Below are positions 3,832 to 44,736 of a stretch of DNA of 54,223 nucleotides, one piece after another (position 1 is the stretch's first letter; each line of letters opens with the position of its first letter). The notes under the pieces were generated by a model that did no database searches, was not told where the DNA came from, and saw only the letters and a program-made list of their open reading frames with translations. Made by a program: the position numbers and the translations under genes. The DNA comes from a virus. Location: the IMG/VR virus record IMGVR_UViG_3300037010_002778, positions 1 to 54,223 of that record; one strand, given 5' to 3'.

Positions 3832-4573
3832 GTTAAATTTATTAAACTCAAAATTATTAATTGATTTTATTATAAAATTTAGAGTTTTAGATAAAAATAT
3901 TTTATTAGAAATTAGTAGTGACAAATTAATAGCAAAAACATTTAAAGATGAATTAAATATTATGAAGTATGGAATTATAGAATTTGATGATATATTTGCA
4001 TATTCCAAAAAAAATGATAAAATAGATGAAACTATAAAATTATGGGTTTATAATATCGATAAATTTAAAGCAGCTTTATTAGCAGTAGGAGATTGTAAAT
4101 TTATTATTTCTTATGATGAAACTGATATGTCAGCTACTCAAATCGAATTAAAAACAAAAAATATTAAAAAAATAATAAAAGTTTTAAATAATTTAGAATT
4201 TAACGAAATTGAAGGTGACAAAATTGAAAAATTATTTGATATAAAAAATTGTTTTGCTAATATTTATTTAAATAAAGAATTTTTATTTAAATTAAAACAA
4301 TTAACTGATTTAGAAGTTGAAGGCGGTTTTGTAATTAGTACTGAAGATTCAAAAATTATTTTTATAGGTTCTGAATTTGAATTAAATTTTGACGGAGAAT
4401 TTAAAATTTTAAATGATGAAATTAAAAAATTTATAGTTAATCGATCAATTTTTAAATTTATAGATAACGAAGATTATAATGTTTATTTGAAAGAAAATGC
4501 TATTTTATTCTTTGACAATAATAATTTTAAATTAGCATCAGGTTTATTGGAATCGCAGGATGAAATTAACTAA
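3818..4573 (+). CDS. 45: Probable DNA sliding clamp (gp45-like)
   Basis: 251 residues with the alternating strands and helices expected of a PCNA/gp45-type clamp: an N-terminal helix, then strands such as LLEISSDKLIAKTF, the segment YGIIEFDDIFAY and the helix IDKFKAALLAV. A second, similar half follows (LKQLTDLEVEGGFVISTEDSKIIFIG). T4 gp45 is 228 residues and forms a trimer that tethers polymerase to DNA and activates late transcription. The call rests on fold-like pattern and on context: it sits directly before a polymerase fragment with a clamp-binding-like tail, in an operon with helicase, UvsX and gp46/47. Similarity is low, so this is an inference. Confidence 0.5.
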   Translation: MKKIELNLLNSKLLIDFIIKFRVLDKNILLEISSDKLIAKTFKDELNIMKYGIIEFDDIFAYSKKNDKIDETIKLWVYNIDKFKAALLAVGDCKFIISYDETDMSATQIELKTKNIKKIIKVLNNLEFNEIEGDKIEKLFDIKNCFANIYLNKEFLFKLKQLTDLEVEGGFVISTEDSKIIFIGSEFELNFDGEFKILNDEIKKFIVNRSIFKFIDNEDYNVYLKENAILFFDNNNFKLASGLLESQDEIN

Positions 4574-5717
4574 AGAATATGAAAATATGACAAAGGAAGA
4601 ACTGGAAATTGAATTAAAAGGTTTAATTTCTAATAGGAATAATGTTTCAAATTTAGAAAAAGCTATAAAACGAATTTTAGTTTCTTCCTATGGTGTATTT
4701 GGTAATAAATATTTCAATTTTTTTAATAAAGATATAGCTGAAACAATAGCATTACAAGGACAAACGTTAATAAAATTTTCAAGTGATATTATAAATAAAT
4801 ATTTTTTAAATTATTGGCATAAAGATAAAAAATTACATAAAACATTAAATATTACTGATGTTAAACCTATAGATCGTAATTTAATTATAGCTGGTATTGT
4901 TGATTCATTGTTTGTAGATTTTAATACTGTAATTAATAGTTGTAAATTTGAATATTCAAAAATTGAATTTATTTTAAATCTTTATAATTATAGATTAAAG
5001 CAGTTTATAAAATTACAAATAGATAAATTTTCAAATAATTATAATACAAATAGTATTTATAATTTTGAATTAAAATCAGTATCTGAATATGCTGCATTTT
5101 TTTCAAAAAATCATTATATTTTATCAATTAAATGGGCAAATGATATAGTATATGAATCGTTAGAGAAATTTAAAATTGCAGGCGTTGAAATTATAAACAA
5201 AACATATCCAAAATTTGCAAGAGACAAATTAAATGAATTAATGAAATACTTTTTTAAAAATAATTTTAGTATATCAACTAATGAAATTATTGAAAAATTA
5301 AAAAATTTAAAAAAACAATTTAAACTTCAAGATATTAATGATATTTCAATGTCAATTGGTATAGGAGAATATGAAAAATATGTCACTCATAAAAAAAATG
5401 AAATTATAATTGAAAGCAAAACTCCTATACACATAAAAGCAGCAGCAAATTATAATAGTGAATTATTAAAAAATAAAAACTTTAGAAATAAGTACATGCT
5501 AATACGCAAATCATCAAGAATAAAATATTTTTATTCAAAAGGAAATTATGAAACTTTTGCTTTTATAAATGGATATTTTCCTATTGAATTTGCGCCAGAA
5601 TTTGATTACGATAAAATGTTTCATAAATTAATAGTTGAACCTATTCAAAAATTTATGAAACTTTTTAATAAAAATAATATACCAGAAAATTTAATAACAT
5701 TTAAAAAAATTTTTTAA
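4560..5717 (+). CDS. Family B DNA polymerase C-terminal fragment (gp43 palm/thumb) with altered motifs
   Basis: 385 residues that align by eye with only the C-terminal part of T4/RB69 gp43. Near the start is a motif B equivalent, K-R-I-L-V-S-S-Y-G (family K-x3-N-S-x-Y-G, so Asn is replaced by Val). Then comes a motif C equivalent, A-G-I-V-D-S-L (family Y-G-D-T-D-S), which keeps the second Asp but has lost the first. A KKRY-like K-N-H-Y follows, then the thumb with TPIHIKAAANYN and FDYDKMFHKLIVEPI. The exonuclease domain and motif A are absent. The C-terminus LITFKKIF resembles the clamp-binding tail of gp43. It may be half of a split polymerase whose N-terminal part is elsewhere, or a relic retained for clamp binding. 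It overlaps the clamp gene by 14 bases. Confidence 0.8.
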   Translation: MKLTKEYENMTKEELEIELKGLISNRNNVSNLEKAIKRILVSSYGVFGNKYFNFFNKDIAETIALQGQTLIKFSSDIINKYFLNYWHKDKKLHKTLNITDVKPIDRNLIIAGIVDSLFVDFNTVINSCKFEYSKIEFILNLYNYRLKQFIKLQIDKFSNNYNTNSIYNFELKSVSEYAAFFSKNHYILSIKWANDIVYESLEKFKIAGVEIINKTYPKFARDKLNELMKYFFKNNFSISTNEIIEKLKNLKKQFKLQDINDISMSIGIGEYEKYVTHKKNEIIIESKTPIHIKAAANYNSELLKNKNFRNKYMLIRKSSRIKYFYSKGNYETFAFINGYFPIEFAPEFDYDKMFHKLIVEPIQKFMKLFNKNNIPENLITFKKIF

Positions 5718-34326: not shown

Positions 34327-34857
34327 ATGAATTTTTTGCAATTTTTAAAAGAGTCAAGAGAATTTGATGCAATTTCGAAAAATGATTATTTGGTTGACTT
34401 TTTATTGAATTTAGTTGACGATAAAGATTTTGTAATGAAAAACAACAAAAAAGAAAAAGAATTAGAAATAATATTTAAATTATTTAAAAATAATACTCAT
34501 AAAGGAATTTTATATAGAGGAGTTTATAAACACGAATTACATTTTTTAAAAGAAAATGAAACTGTAAAATTCAATAAATATTTGTCATTTAGTGAAGATG
34601 TAAATATTGCAAAAAATTTCACAGATTGTAAAACTATTTTAAAAATTGAAGATCCTAAAGGTTTTTTTCCTTATTCAAATTGGTTAATTAATCACTTTAA
34701 AAAAAATAAAGAAGACTACGAAATTTTTGATGGTGAGAAAAAAACAAAAATCACTCAAAAAGAAAAAGAATGGATTGCGAATTTTGATGAATTTTTTCAT
34801 GTTGAAAAAATTTTAAAAAATAAAAATTTAACTGAAGTACATTTGATACAAAAATAA
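34327..34857 (+). CDS. Putative ADP-ribosyltransferase with head-targeting-like leader
   Basis: 176 residues. The motifs fit an Alt/ModA-type R-S-E fold: GILYRGVYK (Arg), then KYLSFSEDVNIAKNF (Ser motif strand) and a C-terminal FFHVEKILKNKNLTEVHL strand pair; the catalytic E-x-E is not obvious and may be divergent. The N-terminus MNFLQFLKESREF resembles the capsid-targeting leader of T4 internal proteins and of Alt, suggesting a protein packaged in the head and injected to modify host RNA polymerase or translation. It ends in a terminator. Confidence 0.55.
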   Translation: MNFLQFLKESREFDAISKNDYLVDFLLNLVDDKDFVMKNNKKEKELEIIFKLFKNNTHKGILYRGVYKHELHFLKENETVKFNKYLSFSEDVNIAKNFTDCKTILKIEDPKGFFPYSNWLINHFKKNKEDYEIFDGEKKTKITQKEKEWIANFDEFFHVEKILKNKNLTEVHLIQK

Positions 34858-34921: not shown

Positions 34922-35476
34922 GTGGCAAAAGTCATAAATTTTTTTGGAGCTCCAGGAGTTGGAAAATCAACGGTCGCTGCTGAAATATTTTCTCAACTAA
35001 AGAAAAAAGGACTTAATGTTGCTTTAGTTACAGAGTTCGCTAATTTTAAAATAACAGAAAAATCTTTTAAAGCCGTTCAAAATCAATACTATGTAACCTC
35101 AAAACAACTATACAATCAAGAAGTTTTTGAAGACAAATACAATATAGTAATTACTGATTCACCTATTTTATTAAGTTTTATATATTCGAATGACTCTATA
35201 GTTGACAAAAAATTTAATGAATTTATTTTAGAGAAATTTAAAGAAAAAGAAAATATTAATTTTTTGTTAAACCATGATACTGTAACTTTAAATAATTTTT
35301 CAATGAATGGTAGACGTCATAAAAAATCAAAATTAGAACAAATTCACAATAAAATTGTTGAAACATTAAAAAGTAATAATATTGAATATAAAAATGTTTT
35401 TAAAGATTATATTCAATTAAAATATTACGTTGAACAGGATTCATTAGTAGACTATATAATTAAAGGGCTCGTTTAA
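34922..35476 (+). CDS. P-loop NTPase/nucleotide kinase-like protein (AAA_28 type)
   Basis: 184 residues from a GTG start. Walker A GAPGVGKST is at 10-18; NIVITDSPILLSF is a Walker B-like segment; MNGRRHKKS may be a lid with basic residues. The layout resembles small NadR/deoxynucleotide-kinase-like ATPases found in large phages. The substrate is unknown. Upstream it abuts a terminator whose hairpin overlaps its ribosome site; downstream a hairpin overlaps its stop codon. Confidence 0.6.
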   Translation: MAKVINFFGAPGVGKSTVAAEIFSQLKKKGLNVALVTEFANFKITEKSFKAVQNQYYVTSKQLYNQEVFEDKYNIVITDSPILLSFIYSNDSIVDKKFNEFILEKFKEKENINFLLNHDTVTLNNFSMNGRRHKKSKLEQIHNKIVETLKSNNIEYKNVFKDYIQLKYYVEQDSLVDYIIKGLV

Positions 35477-35490
35477 AGAGCCCTTATTAT
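35462..35490. terminator. Bidirectional terminator between convergent genes
   Basis: Stem AAGGGCTC / GAGCCCTT (35463-35470 and 35478-35485) with the stop codon of the kinase-like gene in the loop. It lies exactly between the plus-strand gene and the end of the minus-strand PSD-like gene, so it may serve both. The T run is interrupted (TATTATTA), so strength is uncertain. Confidence 0.6.
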
Positions 35491-36275
35491 TACAAAATAT
35501 GTTCACCAAAAAAATAGTGGTTTTTCTTTTTAATTTTTATTTTTTCAAAGTCTCCTTTAAAAAGTAAAACTGTTTGCGATCCCCAATTAAAATTACCTAT
35601 TCTGTCACCAATTTTTACATTTTGGTTGGTTTTTATATTAAAATCAAAATCTTGGATCGTTGATTCGCCTACTAATAACAAAAATACATTTCCTATTTTG
35701 GTATTATATTTGACAATCCAAAGTGAATTTTTACCAAATATTCTTAAATCTTTTGAAATAGGCATTAAATCTACTATTTTCCCAGAGACAGGAGAGTGTA
35801 TATTATGGTAATAACTTACATATAATTTCATATTAACAAAATTATATGTATCATCGACACCTACTTGTTTTAAATCTTCGATTACAGTATTTGTTGGTTT
35901 TTTTAGTCTTATTATAGAAGACATATCTGAAGTTTTTCCAATCGATTCAATTACACATTCATTAGGAATTATAATTTTTGTATTTTTTGAATTTTCTTTT
36001 ATTTCATTAAGTTTAGTTTCTTTTAAATTTCTTGTGAAAAAATCCATAAAATTATCAAATTCTGTTTTCTCGTACCAATCCATAGAAACTGGAGACATTT
36101 TTATTTTCTTTTTAATGTTATTTATTGTGTCTCTATTTTGAAAACCTTCGATTAATTTTTTTAAATTTTCTTTTCCAATATTTTGCGATTTGACAAACTT
36201 TAATTTAGCAAGAACATAACGCTCATTTACTTTGTTTTCTACACGCTCCATCAATTCATAAATTATTTTCTCCAT
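35490..36275 (-). CDS. Phosphatidylserine decarboxylase-like protein
   Basis: 261 residues on the minus strand. PSD family marks: FMDFFTRNLK (compare FFTRKLK), YYHNIHSPVSGKI (the conserved H and P-x-x-G), VFLLLVGES, VKIGDRIGNFNWGSQTVLLF (compare the K-G-x-x-x-G-x-F ... LGST-V). The Gly-Ser self-cleavage site that makes the pyruvoyl group is kept as W-G-S-Q. The SP-x-DG Asp motif appears as IPNEC, i.e. Glu in place of Asp, so activity is uncertain. In cells PSD converts phosphatidylserine to phosphatidylethanolamine at the membrane. Its start lies inside the end of the DUF3326 gene (20-base overlap). Confidence 0.7.
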   Translation of the reverse strand: MEKIIYELMERVENKVNERYVLAKLKFVKSQNIGKENLKKLIEGFQNRDTINNIKKKIKMSPVSMDWYEKTEFDNFMDFFTRNLKETKLNEIKENSKNTKIIIPNECVIESIGKTSDMSSIIRLKKPTNTVIEDLKQVGVDDTYNFVNMKLYVSYYHNIHSPVSGKIVDLMPISKDLRIFGKNSLWIVKYNTKIGNVFLLLVGESTIQDFDFNIKTNQNVKIGDRIGNFNWGSQTVLLFKGDFEKIKIKKKNHYFFGEHIL

Positions 36276-37533
36276 TTAAAATAGTTGTTTTTTTAATTGG
36301 TCTTAAGACTGTATTTGGTGATATTTTATTTTTTAAAGCTATTAAAACACCTGCAGCCTCTAAATAATTATTTACCTCGATCAATTGGTTTTGTCTCCAA
36401 GGTAAATCTTTTAAATTATTTTTCATTACATTATTGTTATCTTTTACTGAAATCACTGTAATATTTTGTTCTAAAGCTGCCAATAATGGTATACCTATTG
36501 CTCTTTCTGGTGTAATTAAAACGTGGACATCTTGATTTGTTAAAATTCCTTGTTCTATAGAATAATTTACTATTTTTGGTGAATTAAAAAGCCCTTTTAT
36601 TACACAAAATAATTCAGTTTTTGATAAAGTTTCAGCACACTTTTTAGGATTAACGATTCCATATTTATATAAAAGTTGACTTTCATAGAACATTGGTGCA
36701 TGTGCGATACTAACATTTGACAAATTAGATATACTATGAGTTAACATACTTTCTATACCGCCCCAAGGATTTACATTTAAATTATCGTTAAAATAATTAT
36801 CGAATAATTCATCAGAATCTCCCTCCATTAATGTATGTAAAACTATAGAATCATAATCGTTTTTATATTTTTCAACTATTTCTATTAAATTTTCTAAATT
36901 ATTTACTTTTCCAACTGCCATATTATTTTCGTTATAATAAAAATAATATTTTGGTGGCTTTTCAATTTGAACAACATCGATGTCGGCTCCAAGAACAACT
37001 CTTGCGGCAGAAGCTGTATTTATTGTATAATTTGAAATATAATCATGTTCTGACTTATCAGAAATTAAAAGTATTCTATTACCTCTTGTTGGTGATAAAC
37101 CAATTTGCCCCGTTATAAACCTATTTAAAATAGAGCCCTCTACATATAAAGTATTTTCAGTCATTTCATTCATATCGGCAGCGTTTACTACATTTGGGTG
37201 AGTTATTAATGTATCTACTGTACTTGCAATTAATTTAGCAGCTGCATTTGCATCTCCAGAGTCTCCGCCAACATTTGCTCCAATTCCAGTAGGAACTATC
37301 ATTATGGCATTAAATTTAGAATTATTAACATTTTTTCTTGGATTAAAATTAAAAATATTTTTATAATTATAACTCTGTTCTGTTAATTCAGCGTATTCTG
37401 CTTCCATCAATTCGTTATTAAAAATAGCAAATCTTACAACTTGCTTATTTTTAAAATAATTTTTTAAATTTTCAAAATTTCCATTTTTTTCAATTTGAAA
37501 ATTTAATTTTTCGTTCATTTGAACAATGTCCAT
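36256..37533 (-). CDS. DUF3326 family protein
   Basis: 425 residues on the minus strand. The diagnostic core is IMIVPTGIGANVGGDSGDA, then DTLITHPNVVNAADM, LYVEGSILNRFITGQIGL and SPTRGNRILLISD, followed by NPWGGIESMLTHSISN and SIAHAPMF. This closely follows the DUF3326 family of cyanobacteria, plants and some bacteria, whose biochemical role is unknown. It is first in a two-gene operon with a PSD-like gene and is transcribed away from the nucleotide-metabolism cluster. Its length matches full-size members with an added N-terminal ~90 residues. Confidence 0.8.
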   Translation of the reverse strand: MDIVQMNEKLNFQIEKNGNFENLKNYFKNKQVVRFAIFNNELMEAEYAELTEQSYNYKNIFNFNPRKNVNNSKFNAIMIVPTGIGANVGGDSGDANAAAKLIASTVDTLITHPNVVNAADMNEMTENTLYVEGSILNRFITGQIGLSPTRGNRILLISDKSEHDYISNYTINTASAARVVLGADIDVVQIEKPPKYYFYYNENNMAVGKVNNLENLIEIVEKYKNDYDSIVLHTLMEGDSDELFDNYFNDNLNVNPWGGIESMLTHSISNLSNVSIAHAPMFYESQLLYKYGIVNPKKCAETLSKTELFCVIKGLFNSPKIVNYSIEQGILTNQDVHVLITPERAIGIPLLAALEQNITVISVKDNNNVMKNNLKDLPWRQNQLIEVNNYLEAAGVLIALKNKISPNTVLRPIKKTTILNGENNL

Positions 37534-37673: not shown

Positions 37674-38543
37674 ATGAAAAATTTAATTATATTAGGAAAT
37701 GGTTTGGCTGCATTGATTTATGCAACATATAATATTGACAAAAATGTTGTAATTGTTGGTAATAAAATAGGTGGACAAATGTCAAGTGAAATTTCACTTG
37801 GTCCACGTATAATACAAAGTGATAATTATACAAAAAATTTTATTAAAAATTTTTTATTATTAGATGACATTAAAACAAAAAAAACTTTTATAAAATATAA
37901 ATATAATGATAAATTTTTAAAAAATTCTACTCCTGAATTTAGAAACAAATACTCAATTATTACTCGTGATAAAGATGTAGCAAGTAATTATACGATGTCT
38001 CAAAATAAAAATGAAATTGAATATTTTGACATAAAGTACAATATTTTTATTAATATTTTATATCAAAAATTATTGACATATAATAACATTCAATTTATTA
38101 ATGGTGATGTTATAAAAATAACAAGTGATTATATTGAATTGAATGATTTAAGAAAAATATACACTAAAAACTCAGAAAAAGTTAATACAATACCTCTTTA
38201 CATTTTTAAAAAATTAATAAATATGGATTATTTGGAATTAAATAGTAAGCCTGTATATTTTTATCACAAAAAAAATAAAAAATTTATTAACAATTTTTAT
38301 TATGTTTATCAAATCAACGATTTTAAAGTTGTTCCACATAGAATTACATATTATGATGATAATATAATCGAGGAAAGTATTGAAAAAATAAGTGACAATT
38401 ATATTGCAATTATACCAAAAATTATAAACGAAACTCCATTCGATTTAATAGGTGATTGGAAAATGTTTGGTAGATTTGCTGAATGGGATCAGAGTATAAA
38501 AATAAATGAAATGTTAAAAAAATTGGAAAATTCAAATGATTAA
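37674..38543 (+). CDS. Probable FAD-binding Rossmann protein
   Basis: 289 residues. The N-terminus LIILGNGLAALIYATY is a G-x-G-x-x-A dinucleotide-binding loop, followed by NVVIVGNKIGGQMSS, typical of flavoproteins of the amine oxidase/mutase sort. The C-terminal DLIGDWKMFGRFAEWDQSIKINEML resembles the terminal FAD-contact segment of such proteins. Substrate unknown; its neighbours make nucleotides and sugar derivatives. It overlaps the next gene by eight bases. Confidence 0.55.
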   Translation: MKNLIILGNGLAALIYATYNIDKNVVIVGNKIGGQMSSEISLGPRIIQSDNYTKNFIKNFLLLDDIKTKKTFIKYKYNDKFLKNSTPEFRNKYSIITRDKDVASNYTMSQNKNEIEYFDIKYNIFINILYQKLLTYNNIQFINGDVIKITSDYIELNDLRKIYTKNSEKVNTIPLYIFKKLINMDYLELNSKPVYFYHKKNKKFINNFYYVYQINDFKVVPHRITYYDDNIIEESIEKISDNYIAIIPKIINETPFDLIGDWKMFGRFAEWDQSIKINEMLKKLENSND

Positions 38544-40932: not shown

Positions 40933-43900
40933 ATGAGAAAATTTAAAAACTATATACCTTTACATTTACATTCTACATATTCAATTGGTGATGGTGTTTC
41001 AAAAATAGAGGACATTATAAAACGTGCAAAAGAAATTGGATCTAATTCTATTGCTATTAGTGAACATGGTACAATGGCATCATTTTATAAATTTTATTTA
41101 ACTGCAAAAAGTAATAATATTAATCCAATTATTGGATGTGAATTTTATGTAAATGATTTATATTTTAGTGATAATGAAAAATTTTTAAAAATAAAAAGGA
41201 CAAAAAGTAGTTCAAGCGATGATTTAGAGGGTGACGAGGACAATTATGACAAAACTGATGCTGCTAATTCTCATTTAATCGTATATGCTAAAAACTTTGA
41301 AGGGTTACAAAATATTATTCATTTAAATAATATAGCAGCTCAAAATTTTTATCGTAAACCTTTAATTTCAACTGATCATGTATTTAATATTTTAGATGAA
41401 AATAATATTGTAACAACTGCATGTTTAGCATCAAAATTTAATAAATTAATTTTAAAAAATGAACTTAACGAAGCAGTTGATTTGTTAAAAAAATATAAAA
41501 ATAAATTTAAAGATGATTTTTATATTGAATATCATATTAACGATTTAAAGGAACAACTTAAAGTTAATAAATTTTATGAAGTAGTATCAAAAAAATTAAA
41601 AATACCTCTTGTTTTAGGTATTGATGCTCATTACGTTTATAAAGAAGATTGGAAAATACAATATTTATTATATGTAATTAAAACTCGTAATACAGTTAAT
41701 ACAATGCCTGAAAGCAAATGGTTTTATACCGTTAGAGATTTGTATATTAAAACAGTTGATGATATTTACGATAAAGCTGAATTATTAAATTATAATATCG
41801 ATGCTGTTAATGAAGCAATTGCATCGACATTTGATATTGCCAATAAAGTAAATATTGAAATTCCTAAATATCGTAATAATTTTCCTAAATTTTTTGAAAA
41901 CTATGAAGATTCTGTTGATACTTTTAATAAAAAATTAGAAATAAAATGGGATGAAAAAGTAAAAAATGGTTTAATCCCAAATGACAAAATTGAACAATAC
42001 CGTGAACGTTTAGAACAAGAACGAAAATTAATGATCGACAAGGGGTATATTGACTATTTTTTAATATTAGATGATTTATTAAACAATTTTGTTTATAAAA
42101 CTGGAGGCTCTTCTGGAGCAGGACGTGGATCAGCCTCTGGTTCTTTAATACTTTTTATTTTAGGTGTTACAAAAATAGATCCATTAAAATACGATTTAAT
42201 ATTTGAACGATTTATAAACGAAGCTAGAACTGATCCACCTGATGTGGACTGTGATATAGATCATATTACGCAAAAAAAGGTTGAAAATTATTTAATAGAG
42301 CGTTGGGGACATGACAAAGTTTGTCATGTTGGTAGTTTTGGTAAATTTGGTACTAAAACTCTTATAAAGGATATTTGTCGAGTTTATGAATTAGATTTTA
42401 ATTTGTCGAATCAGTTGACAGCGTTATTTAGTACTACAAAAAGTGATTCCGATATAAGAATTGAATTGGAAAATGCTTATAATATTGCTCAAAAAACAAA
42501 TAATTATAATTTAATTGACTTTATCGACAAAAACAAATCACTGTTTATTGAACTATGCGACAAAATGACAGGAATGATACGACAACAAAATAGACATGCA
42601 TCCGGGGTACTTATTAGTGACAAAACATTTGAAAATAGTGATCTTCCAATTGCATATACAAAAGGTAGTTTAATAACAAATGTACAGGAGGGTGGTGAGG
42701 ATCGTGAGGTTTCGGAGTTAGGGTATCTAAAATTGGATATTTTAGGTTTAATTACAGCTACAATTAATGGTGAGACGATAAAATTAGTAGAAAAAAATTA
42801 TAATATTAAAAATTTAGAAAATCAATTATTATTGTCAAATTTTGATGACGTTAATGTATATAAAGAATTTGGAATTGGTAACTCAAAAGATATTTTTCAA
42901 TTTGGTTCTGATTCGATGATTGAGTTAATGAAGCGAATAAAGCCAAATAGTATACAAGAACTTACAACTATAAATGCATTGTTTAGACCTGCCCTCGTTC
43001 AAAATGGTTCTATTAATGAATATATTAAAAATCGTGAAAATCCAAATAAAGCTAAAAAAGAATACGATAAAATAAGTAAAGATATTTGGCCTTTATTTAA
43101 AGAAACATTTGGTATTCCTTTATACCAAGAATCAATTATGCTTATTTTACAAAAAATAGGTGGTTTTACATTGGCTGAAGCTGACAAAGTAAGAAAAACT
43201 TTAAAACTTTTTTATAAAAAATATCAAGACAAATCAGAAACTTTTTTAAATGTAATCGATAAATTTAAAACACAAGCTATAAATAATGGTCTTTCAGAGG
43301 AAGGAACCGAAGTATTGTTACAAAAATTAGCTACTTATACAGAATATTCGTTTAACAAATGTCTTTCTGGTAATACTTATGTTCAAACTATTAATGGTAT
43401 AAAACAAATTTCTGATTTTTTAGGTGGTGAAATTGTTATATCAGTTGATCCTGTTACAAAAAAAGTATATCAAACTAAAGTTAAAAAATTACATAAAAAT
43501 GGTATAAAAAAATTATATTCAATTAAAACTGAAACAGACGAAATTATTGAATGTACGTTAGATCATAAATTTATGATAAAGTCTGGAAAAATGAAGACGT
43601 TAAAACAAATTATTGAAAATAACTATAAAATTTGTATTGTTGGTAATAAAAATGTAATTTTAAATAAAGACTCTTTAAAAGAAATAGGTTTTGAAGAAAC
43701 ATTTGATTTGGAAATTGATGATAAAAATCATAATTTTGTATTGTCAAATGGTATAGTAACATCAAATTCTCATGCCGTTGCTTATGCGATGAATGCTTAT
43801 ATTTCACAATGGCTTAAAATTCATTATCCCAAAGAATATTATGCAACGTTATTAAATTACACAAATATAGATGAAATTTCAATTTTTATTAAACAAGCTA

Positions 43901-44736
43901 CTTTACAAAATGTTAAAATAGGTAGTTGTACTTATGGTAATTCGGACAACAAATTTACAGTTGATTATAAAAATAATATAATTAGATTTGGTCTTAATTT
44001 AGTCAAAGGATTAAGAACAAATGACATTGAAAAAATAAATAATAATTCTAAAATAAAAGACAAAGTAATGTTAATTAAATTTATAATTGACTCTAAACTT
44101 AACAAAAAAACAGTTGAAGTATTATCACGTTTAGGTTATTTTTCAAATATAATAAGTAACAATAATTTATTTACTGAAAAATTATTATTAAAATTAAAAA
44201 ATTCTAAAAATTTTGATTTGGAATTAAATGCTTATTTAAAGTATGAGCCAAAATTTGCAAATTATCAAAAATACGAAACGTTACAATTTGAAAAGGAATA
44301 TTTAGGATTTTATTTAAGTGAACACCCGTTTGGAGAGTTTTACAATAAATTATTACAAAAAAATATTGCAAAAAATTATATAAGACCTAAAGACTTAAAT
44401 GAAATTTCAAATAAAAAACAAGGTATAAATTTAGTTGCATTATTAGGTGATATTATTTTGTTAAAGTCAAAAAAGACAGGTAAAGAATATTACAGGTTGG
44501 TACTTGAAGATGATGAAACACAAATAAATGTTACAATTTTTGACGCTGAATTGATTAAAAATTTAAACAAAGGTGATTTTATAAATATAATTATAAATAA
44601 AGATATTTTTGGTTATTCAGCTATTAAAAACAAACAAATAAAAATATTTAATAATGATAACGAAATTGATTTTAAAAATAAAATTATTGATTTTGAAACA
44701 ATTAATGTGCAACAAAGAACAAAAAGGTTATTTTAA
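40933..44736 (+). CDS. dnaE: DNA polymerase III alpha subunit (family C, DnaE type) with a mini-intein
   Basis: 1267 residues, 1131 after intein removal. The PHP domain starts YIPLHLHSTYSIGDG, with ISEHGTM. The palm has GGSSGAGRGSASGSL and the catalytic PPDVDCDID (Asp-x-Asp). RQQNRHASGVLIS and the helix-hairpin region follow; near the end LVALLGDIILLKSKKTG is the OB fold. The intein occupies residues 810-945, between FNK and SHAVAYA. The C-terminus QQRTKRLF may bind a clamp. This is a complete-looking replicative polymerase, unusual beside a T4-type replication set and the PolB fragment at 4560. Confidence 0.92.
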   Translation: MRKFKNYIPLHLHSTYSIGDGVSKIEDIIKRAKEIGSNSIAISEHGTMASFYKFYLTAKSNNINPIIGCEFYVNDLYFSDNEKFLKIKRTKSSSSDDLEGDEDNYDKTDAANSHLIVYAKNFEGLQNIIHLNNIAAQNFYRKPLISTDHVFNILDENNIVTTACLASKFNKLILKNELNEAVDLLKKYKNKFKDDFYIEYHINDLKEQLKVNKFYEVVSKKLKIPLVLGIDAHYVYKEDWKIQYLLYVIKTRNTVNTMPESKWFYTVRDLYIKTVDDIYDKAELLNYNIDAVNEAIASTFDIANKVNIEIPKYRNNFPKFFENYEDSVDTFNKKLEIKWDEKVKNGLIPNDKIEQYRERLEQERKLMIDKGYIDYFLILDDLLNNFVYKTGGSSGAGRGSASGSLILFILGVTKIDPLKYDLIFERFINEARTDPPDVDCDIDHITQKKVENYLIERWGHDKVCHVGSFGKFGTKTLIKDICRVYELDFNLSNQLTALFSTTKSDSDIRIELENAYNIAQKTNNYNLIDFIDKNKSLFIELCDKMTGMIRQQNRHASGVLISDKTFENSDLPIAYTKGSLITNVQEGGEDREVSELGYLKLDILGLITATINGETIKLVEKNYNIKNLENQLLLSNFDDVNVYKEFGIGNSKDIFQFGSDSMIELMKRIKPNSIQELTTINALFRPALVQNGSINEYIKNRENPNKAKKEYDKISKDIWPLFKETFGIPLYQESIMLILQKIGGFTLAEADKVRKTLKLFYKKYQDKSETFLNVIDKFKTQAINNGLSEEGTEVLLQKLATYTEYSFNKCLSGNTYVQTINGIKQISDFLGGEIVISVDPVTKKVYQTKVKKLHKNGIKKLYSIKTETDEIIECTLDHKFMIKSGKMKTLKQIIENNYKICIVGNKNVILNKDSLKEIGFEETFDLEIDDKNHNFVLSNGIVTSNSHAVAYAMNAYISQWLKIHYPKEYYATLLNYTNIDEISIFIKQATLQNVKIGSCTYGNSDNKFTVDYKNNIIRFGLNLVKGLRTNDIEKINNNSKIKDKVMLIKFIIDSKLNKKTVEVLSRLGYFSNIISNNNLFTEKLLLKLKNSKNFDLELNAYLKYEPKFANYQKYETLQFEKEYLGFYLSEHPFGEFYNKLLQKNIAKNYIRPKDLNEISNKKQGINLVALLGDIILLKSKKTGKEYYRLVLEDDETQINVTIFDAELIKNLNKGDFINIIINKDIFGYSAIKNKQIKIFNNDNEIDFKNKIIDFETINVQQRTKRLF
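43360..43767 (+). other. Contiguous mini-intein in DnaE
   Basis: 136 residues in frame from Cys (CLSGNTYVQT) to IVTSN, with +1 Ser of SHAVAYA. Block B is ECTLDHKF (T-x-x-H), and the C-terminal blocks are FDLEIDDKNHNFVLSNGI. No endonuclease domain fits in this length. The insertion site, K|S in FNKSHA, is three residues downstream of the well-known cyanobacterial DnaE split-intein site (before CFN). Confidence 0.9.

Follow-up and report, generated by a model that had tools for sequence, protein, structure and literature searches.

Why a phage should carry a protein of the DUF3326 family side by side with a homologue of phosphatidylserine decarboxylase (PSD), a lipid enzyme, is the question raised by one locus of an IMG/VR virus record of 54,223 bases (hereafter "the window", meaning the whole stretch of DNA analysed). 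The window carries T4-like replication genes, including those for UvsX, a DnaB-like helicase, an SbcC-like subunit and a DNA polymerase, which confirms its phage origin. Open reading frames and Pfam matches bear out the original prediction of two overlapping minus-strand genes for a DUF3326 and a PSD-like protein (Table 1), and the pair is flanked by plus-strand genes. The decarboxylase-family gene lies adjacent to the DUF3326 gene on the same strand, and their overlap is likely to reflect translational coupling; near-zero spacing also characterizes most homologous phage loci. DUF3326 proteins extend from cyanobacteria to phages without a known function, and a near-constant decarboxylase neighbour offers a direct route to their substrate. 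Our best reading is that the window pair is the phage version of a widespread, apparently undescribed two-gene module, composed of DUF3326 and a dedicated amino-acid decarboxylase, of which we found no description in a literature search. This module context makes the function of both proteins testable.

Table 1. Features of the DUF3326 and PSD-like gene pair (positions refer to the window)
Feature	Position	Strand	Details
DUF3326 protein	36256..37533	-	425 aa; PF11805 E 1.1e-74; AF2 pLDDT 94.6
PSD-fold pyruvoyl-type decarboxylase homologue	35490..36275	-	261 aa; PF02666 E 6.4e-19; AF2 pLDDT 88; VIA Z 13.8
Overlap of DUF3326 3' end and PSD-like start, 20 nt	36256..36275	-	ORF coordinates
Gly232-Ser233 codons (W-G-S-Q-T), predicted self-cleavage/pyruvoyl site	35577..35582	-	aligned with E. 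coli G253-S254; invariant in phage homologues
His157 codon, equivalent of catalytic E. coli His144	35805..35807	-	alignment; role from PMC7952604
Glu106 codon, position of E. coli Asp90	35958..35960	-	alignment; Glu in 10/10 phage-type PSDs
Perfect inverted repeat GGGCTC-N7-GAGCCC	35465..35483	.	convergent end of pair and 34922-35476(+)

The PSD-like protein matches the Pfam profile PF02666 (PS_Dcarbxylase) with 68.8 bits (cut-off 22), and its AF2 model, the best of five (pLDDT 88; 67-76 for the other four), adopts the PSD fold, a test set in advance (best Foldseek E value 1.7e-6; VIA Z 13.8 to E. coli PSD, with an rmsd of 3.5 over 191 residues). The predicted motifs, H-x-P-x-x-G and Gly-Ser with Glu for the usual Asp, are likewise all in place (H157-N-I-H160-S-P162-V-S-G165, W231-G232-S233 and Glu106), and Glu106, His157, Gly232 and Ser233 are invariant in the alignment of eight phage homologues. 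Along with the fold, the protein retains the equivalents of E. coli H144 (the catalytic His), H147, G253 and S254, whereas it differs by D90->E, D142->Y/F, Y137->K, L252->W and T255->Q (E. coli numbering) and by deletion of the Ser166 loop, although this residue matching comes from a sequence alignment at low identity and is somewhat doubtful outside the motifs. Lys at 137 and the deletion at Ser166 are found in 10/10 phage-type PSDs; the canonical PSD of Ilyobacter has Arg at 137. The Asp of the Asp-His-Ser set is not kept at either E. coli position (D90 or D142), but the Glu at position 90 may serve in its place. In E. coli PSD, D90 and D142 can stand in for one another during self-cleavage, and the Asp to Glu change is no evidence against activity, since mutants altered only at D90 still mature and remain active as decarboxylases (PMC7952604). 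The PSD-like protein is probably a pyruvoyl enzyme.

Whether it acts on a phospholipid is another matter. In E. coli PSD, Tyr137, His144 and Ser166 contact the phosphate and carboxyl groups (PMC7952604), so that retention of the catalytic His and Gly-Ser together with loss of Tyr137 and Ser166 implies that the chemistry has been kept and the headgroup contacts have not. The protein scores at best 48 bits against the NCBIfam equivalog models for true phosphatidylserine decarboxylase, far from their cut-off of 307. Checked for the hydrophobic, membrane-binding N-terminus of true PSDs, the hydropathy of its first 60 residues (GRAVY -0.74) differs from that of E. coli (-0.04), but the canonical Ilyobacter PSD has a comparable value (-0.82). 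That the pair makes phosphatidylethanolamine or otherwise alters host phospholipids, as the fold, the Pfam family and the conserved His and Gly-Ser might suggest, appears highly improbable to us given these lost contacts, the presence of a SpeD-like or NspC-like gene rather than a PSD at this place in related phages and bacteria (see below), and the fact that no phosphatidylserine synthase occurs among the neighbouring genes scanned.

The pairing is not peculiar to the window; neither of the outcomes named in advance as refuting the prediction, absence of a PSD fold or of the pair elsewhere, was observed. A two-motif DNA pattern retrieved 23 viral contigs with DUF3326, and alignment-based scans retrieved 64 viral and 80 bacterial DUF3326 loci. 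In seven further IMG/VR phage contigs (L114-L120), a phage-type PSD adjoins DUF3326, with a T4-type portal gene next to the pair in three of them (L118-L120), and on another phage contig with a portal gene (L123) a member of a different PSD subfamily lies directly upstream of DUF3326. Counting against a fixed module, phage-type PSDs also occur without DUF3326 on a 482-kb phage contig and in a further phage represented by short contigs (L182/L183). Searches of INPHARED yielded no DUF3326 match, either with the window protein (phages and plasmids) or with a short-type protein (phages), and a PHROG search gave no convincing match for either protein of the window. The sole PSD match among the INPHARED "phages" is an Acinetobacter contig that carries chromosomal genes and had been filed as a phage; the record of "Acinetobacter phage MD-2021a" (L004, CAKLQH020000008.1), with bacterial pncB, serB, phoR and phoB in the stretch, is apparently mislabelled. 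Another candidate, L005, resembled a capsid-like protein only through a fortuitous coiled-coil match and was discarded.

An indication of function comes from the gene beside DUF3326. Among 140 viral and bacterial loci, 121 have a decarboxylase gene within 150 nt of DUF3326 (SpeD-like in 84, NspC-like in 30 and phage PSD-like in 7), an association that is no effect of selection because the loci were chosen by DUF3326 alone; conversely, 121 of the 129 strong decarboxylase matches in all these loci fall within that distance. Clustering of neighbours identified the gene directly upstream of bacterial DUF3326 as either SpeD-like (PF02675) or an NspC-like PLP decarboxylase (PF02784/PF00278; TIGR01047 match with 332 bits), and profile searches placed such a gene directly upstream, on the same strand and at ≤400 nt, in 72 of 78 bacterial loci spanning 18 named phyla (42 SpeD-like and 30 PLP-type). 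SpeD-like genes also precede nearly all short-type and several long-type DUF3326 genes of viruses, and no other neighbour of DUF3326 in phages is nearly as common as the decarboxylase. Also on the opposing side, no decarboxylase was in reach at four viral (L130, L145, L169 and L175) and six bacterial DUF3326 loci, some of them near contig ends. In a DUF3326 tree of 120 rows, the PSD-linked ones form one clade (SH-aLRT 100), L123, with its second PSD subfamily, is nested in a SpeD-linked clade (support 98), and the type of decarboxylase changes at least 14 times, a count that is approximate, with SH-aLRT support derived from a quick search. The phage pair also appears to be an instance of SpeD giving way, on two occasions, to a lipid-enzyme fold at one and the same genetic position. 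We take the repeated swapping of unrelated decarboxylases in a single slot as the chief reason to assign to the PSD-like protein the role that SpeD-like and NspC-like enzymes play elsewhere. Co-localization and swapping also support the predicted membership of DUF3326 and the PSD-like protein in one pathway, but not the suggestion that this pathway remodels membrane phospholipids: with most DUF3326 partners being SpeD-like or NspC-like, and Tyr137 (Lys here) and the Ser166 contact lost, it is probably not a phospholipid pathway.

We consider it reasonably probable, with some room for doubt, that SpeD has given way to the PSD-like protein as pyruvoyl amino-acid decarboxylase in a two-gene DUF3326 amine pathway. 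Most phages and many bacteria would fill the decarboxylase position of the module with a pyruvoyl-type enzyme of the SpeD family, and other bacteria with an NspC-like PLP enzyme; in this phage clade the slot would have been taken by a PSD-fold pyruvoyl-type enzyme. In the scheme that we infer, the PSD-like proenzyme would cleave itself at Gly232/Ser233 to form the pyruvoyl group. A polar amino acid, probably a cationic one resembling ornithine or arginine, would then be bound to this group through its alpha-amine as a Schiff base; loss of CO2 would leave an amine to be processed further by DUF3326, a putative alpha/beta enzyme in which numerous Asp, Glu, His and Asn residues are conserved. There are precedents, with solved structures, for the PSD fold acting on a free amino acid, namely the arginine decarboxylase of A. 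oryzae (9jer, 9jf5) and the L-tryptophan decarboxylase PsiD (8x4q, 8zia), which match the window model with Z values of 11.1 to 11.7 (11.4 for 9jer and 11.7 for PsiD), although both are fungal and only about 17-18% identical to it. We know of no DUF3326 partner for these fungal PSD-fold decarboxylases. The original prediction had offered, as a second possibility, a pyruvoyl-enzyme reaction on another serine-derived substrate; a substrate other than the phospholipid comes close to our reading, but a cationic amino acid (ornithine, arginine) or an amino-acid conjugate is more likely than a serine derivative. DNA hypermodification involving a decarboxylated serine-type base modification was also considered, and nothing among the genes scanned speaks in its favour.

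Additional hints about the substrate come from the SpeD partners. SpeDC and SpeDA are phage- and bacteria-encoded pyruvoyl ornithine/arginine decarboxylases derived from SpeD (PMC9992855, PMC10407285); the window enzyme is likewise phage-borne and predicted to be of pyruvoyl type, but has the PSD instead of the SpeD fold. Li and colleagues assayed phage SpeD homologues and found them to decarboxylate free ornithine or arginine (PMC9992855); in a bacterial follow-up, which names no DUF neighbour in its main text, the same authors give four residues, Gln, Thr, Phe and Tyr, that mark the ornithine decarboxylase (ODC) group (PMC10407285). By our own matching of residue positions, the DUF3326-linked SpeDs share three of these four residues with SpeDC (Gln, Thr and Tyr) and have Thr in place of Phe, and the absence of the fourth means that they may act on something else. 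Three kinds of SpeD can be distinguished in module genomes, AdoMetDC (ISESHLAIHTWPE), ODC-like (VQLIETSSITGHF...Y), which adjoins SpeE in some genomes, and DUF3326-linked (VQFILTSNITIHT...Y), and they correspond to three tree groups (support 99, 91 and 87, from few alignment columns), with the DUF3326-linked SpeDs set apart from AdoMetDC (support 99). Several genomes possess spermidine genes with the DUF3326 module elsewhere, so the module is not simply a housekeeping route. Among other genes of amine metabolism, an agmatinase-like gene (L118) and an ornithine-cyclodeaminase-like gene (L122) were each seen only once at DUF3326 loci, and only one of 19 phage records searched contains an arginase-family gene.

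The order of the two steps might also be reversed, with DUF3326 first attaching an amino-acid group (3-amino-3-carboxypropyl, ornithine-like) to a larger molecule and the decarboxylase then leaving an aminoalkyl group. Each of the three partner families includes known enzymes whose substrate is a larger molecule decarboxylated at its amino-acid end (AdoMet for SpeD, carboxynorspermidine for NspC and phosphatidylserine for PSD), and the DUF3326-linked SpeD group is separate from the ODC-like group of the same genomes. By contrast, the PDB fold search revealed no match of DUF3326 to a known AdoMet-dependent or other transferase fold, and the phage SpeD homologues assayed so far, which may or may not be close to the DUF3326-linked group, act on free ornithine or arginine. 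Altogether, we regard this reversed order as unlikely.

For its part, the window DUF3326 protein matches PF11805 with 251.9 bits (cut-off 25) over profile positions 1-335 of 337 and protein residues 75-408. It belongs, with an N-terminal extension, to the long type (about 420-480 aa), also seen in some phages and in the bacterial loci fetched, whereas most phages have a short type of about 330 aa. For cyanobacterial DUF3326, of the same Pfam family, all that has been remarked is a position beside fed3 and DUF650 (PMC4284462), in contrast with the long (about 420 aa), decarboxylase-linked protein of the window, and our literature search found DUF3326 mentioned in just two papers, neither of which deals with its function. 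Across an alignment of 95 homologues, 30 polar residues are conserved at about 90% or more, including D94, H112, D120, E123, E132, E261, H278, E301, Y390 and E392; the window protein has Ala in place of the near-invariant Cys345 and keeps the other near-invariant polar residues. Its AF2 model (pLDDT 94.6) has no clear match in the PDB, only weak, partial, flavodoxin-like ones mostly covering residues 121-324, so the reaction is not predictable from structure; a middling flavodoxin-like match to lumazine synthase (Z 8.8 over 132 residues) names no function. From these features, DUF3326 looks like an alpha/beta enzyme with an acid-rich pocket that would suit a cationic amine. A homospermidine synthase role was rejected, as the fold lends it no support and SpeD/SpeE pathways are already present in several genomes. 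The tight one-to-one coupling, with overlapping or nearly contiguous genes, would also be expected if DUF3326 were a maturation or regulatory partner of the decarboxylase and not a pathway enzyme. We give very little credence to this explanation, since DUF3326 also accompanies a PLP enzyme that needs no self-cleavage as well as pyruvoyl-type enzymes of two unrelated folds, and the 30 polar residues that are near-invariant in it have the appearance of an active site.

In bacteria, the decarboxylase-DUF3326 pair occurs in larger gene arrays. PtuAB-like genes lie directly upstream of it in 13 to 15 of the 78 bacterial loci, with the PtuA-like ATPase and PtuB-like HNH genes on the same strand and mostly small gaps (among them L037, L038, L046, L057, L067, L068, L074, L082, L089, L094, L104 and L108); two representatives gave PADLOC E values of 4e-62 and 5e-55. 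Such genes, related to the Septu (PtuA/PtuB) defence system, adjoin bacterial pairs, whereas none was seen by the phage pair, and a literature search found no paper linking PtuAB with a decarboxylase. In nine other loci (L048, L077, L087, L091, L095, L098, L109, L111 and L112), the pair follows GSP-synthase ATP-grasp genes and apparent YgiB, DUF350 or PspA genes, an arrangement resembling the envelope-stress type operon described in PMC11237479. The PtuAB linkage may connect the decarboxylase-DUF3326 pathway with phage defence. It is conceivable, if rather doubtful, that a widely transferred phage and bacterial decarboxylase-DUF3326 amine pathway has been wired in bacteria into Septu-like PtuAB and GSP-synthase/YgiB/DUF350/PspA operons, and that phages supply the amine or blunt the dependence on it, possibly as counter-defence.

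A promoter scan showed no clear excess over shuffled sequences. The inverted repeat at the convergent end of the window pair, absent from the terminator scan listing and with 0 expected in shuffles, is likely a terminator common to the pair and the convergent plus-strand gene. Among other genes, the one at 37674-38543 (+) begins like an FAD/NAD(P)-binding oxidoreductase (GNGLAALIYA...GGQM) but reaches the cut-off of no family, and the product of 34327-34857 (+) resembles a phage RNA-polymerase ADP-ribosylase (phrog_832, E 2e-12). The window also encodes a DNA polymerase III alpha subunit (DnaE/PHP; 40933-44736, +) with an intein splicing domain at residues 822-901, alongside part of a T4-type DNA polymerase (4560-5717).
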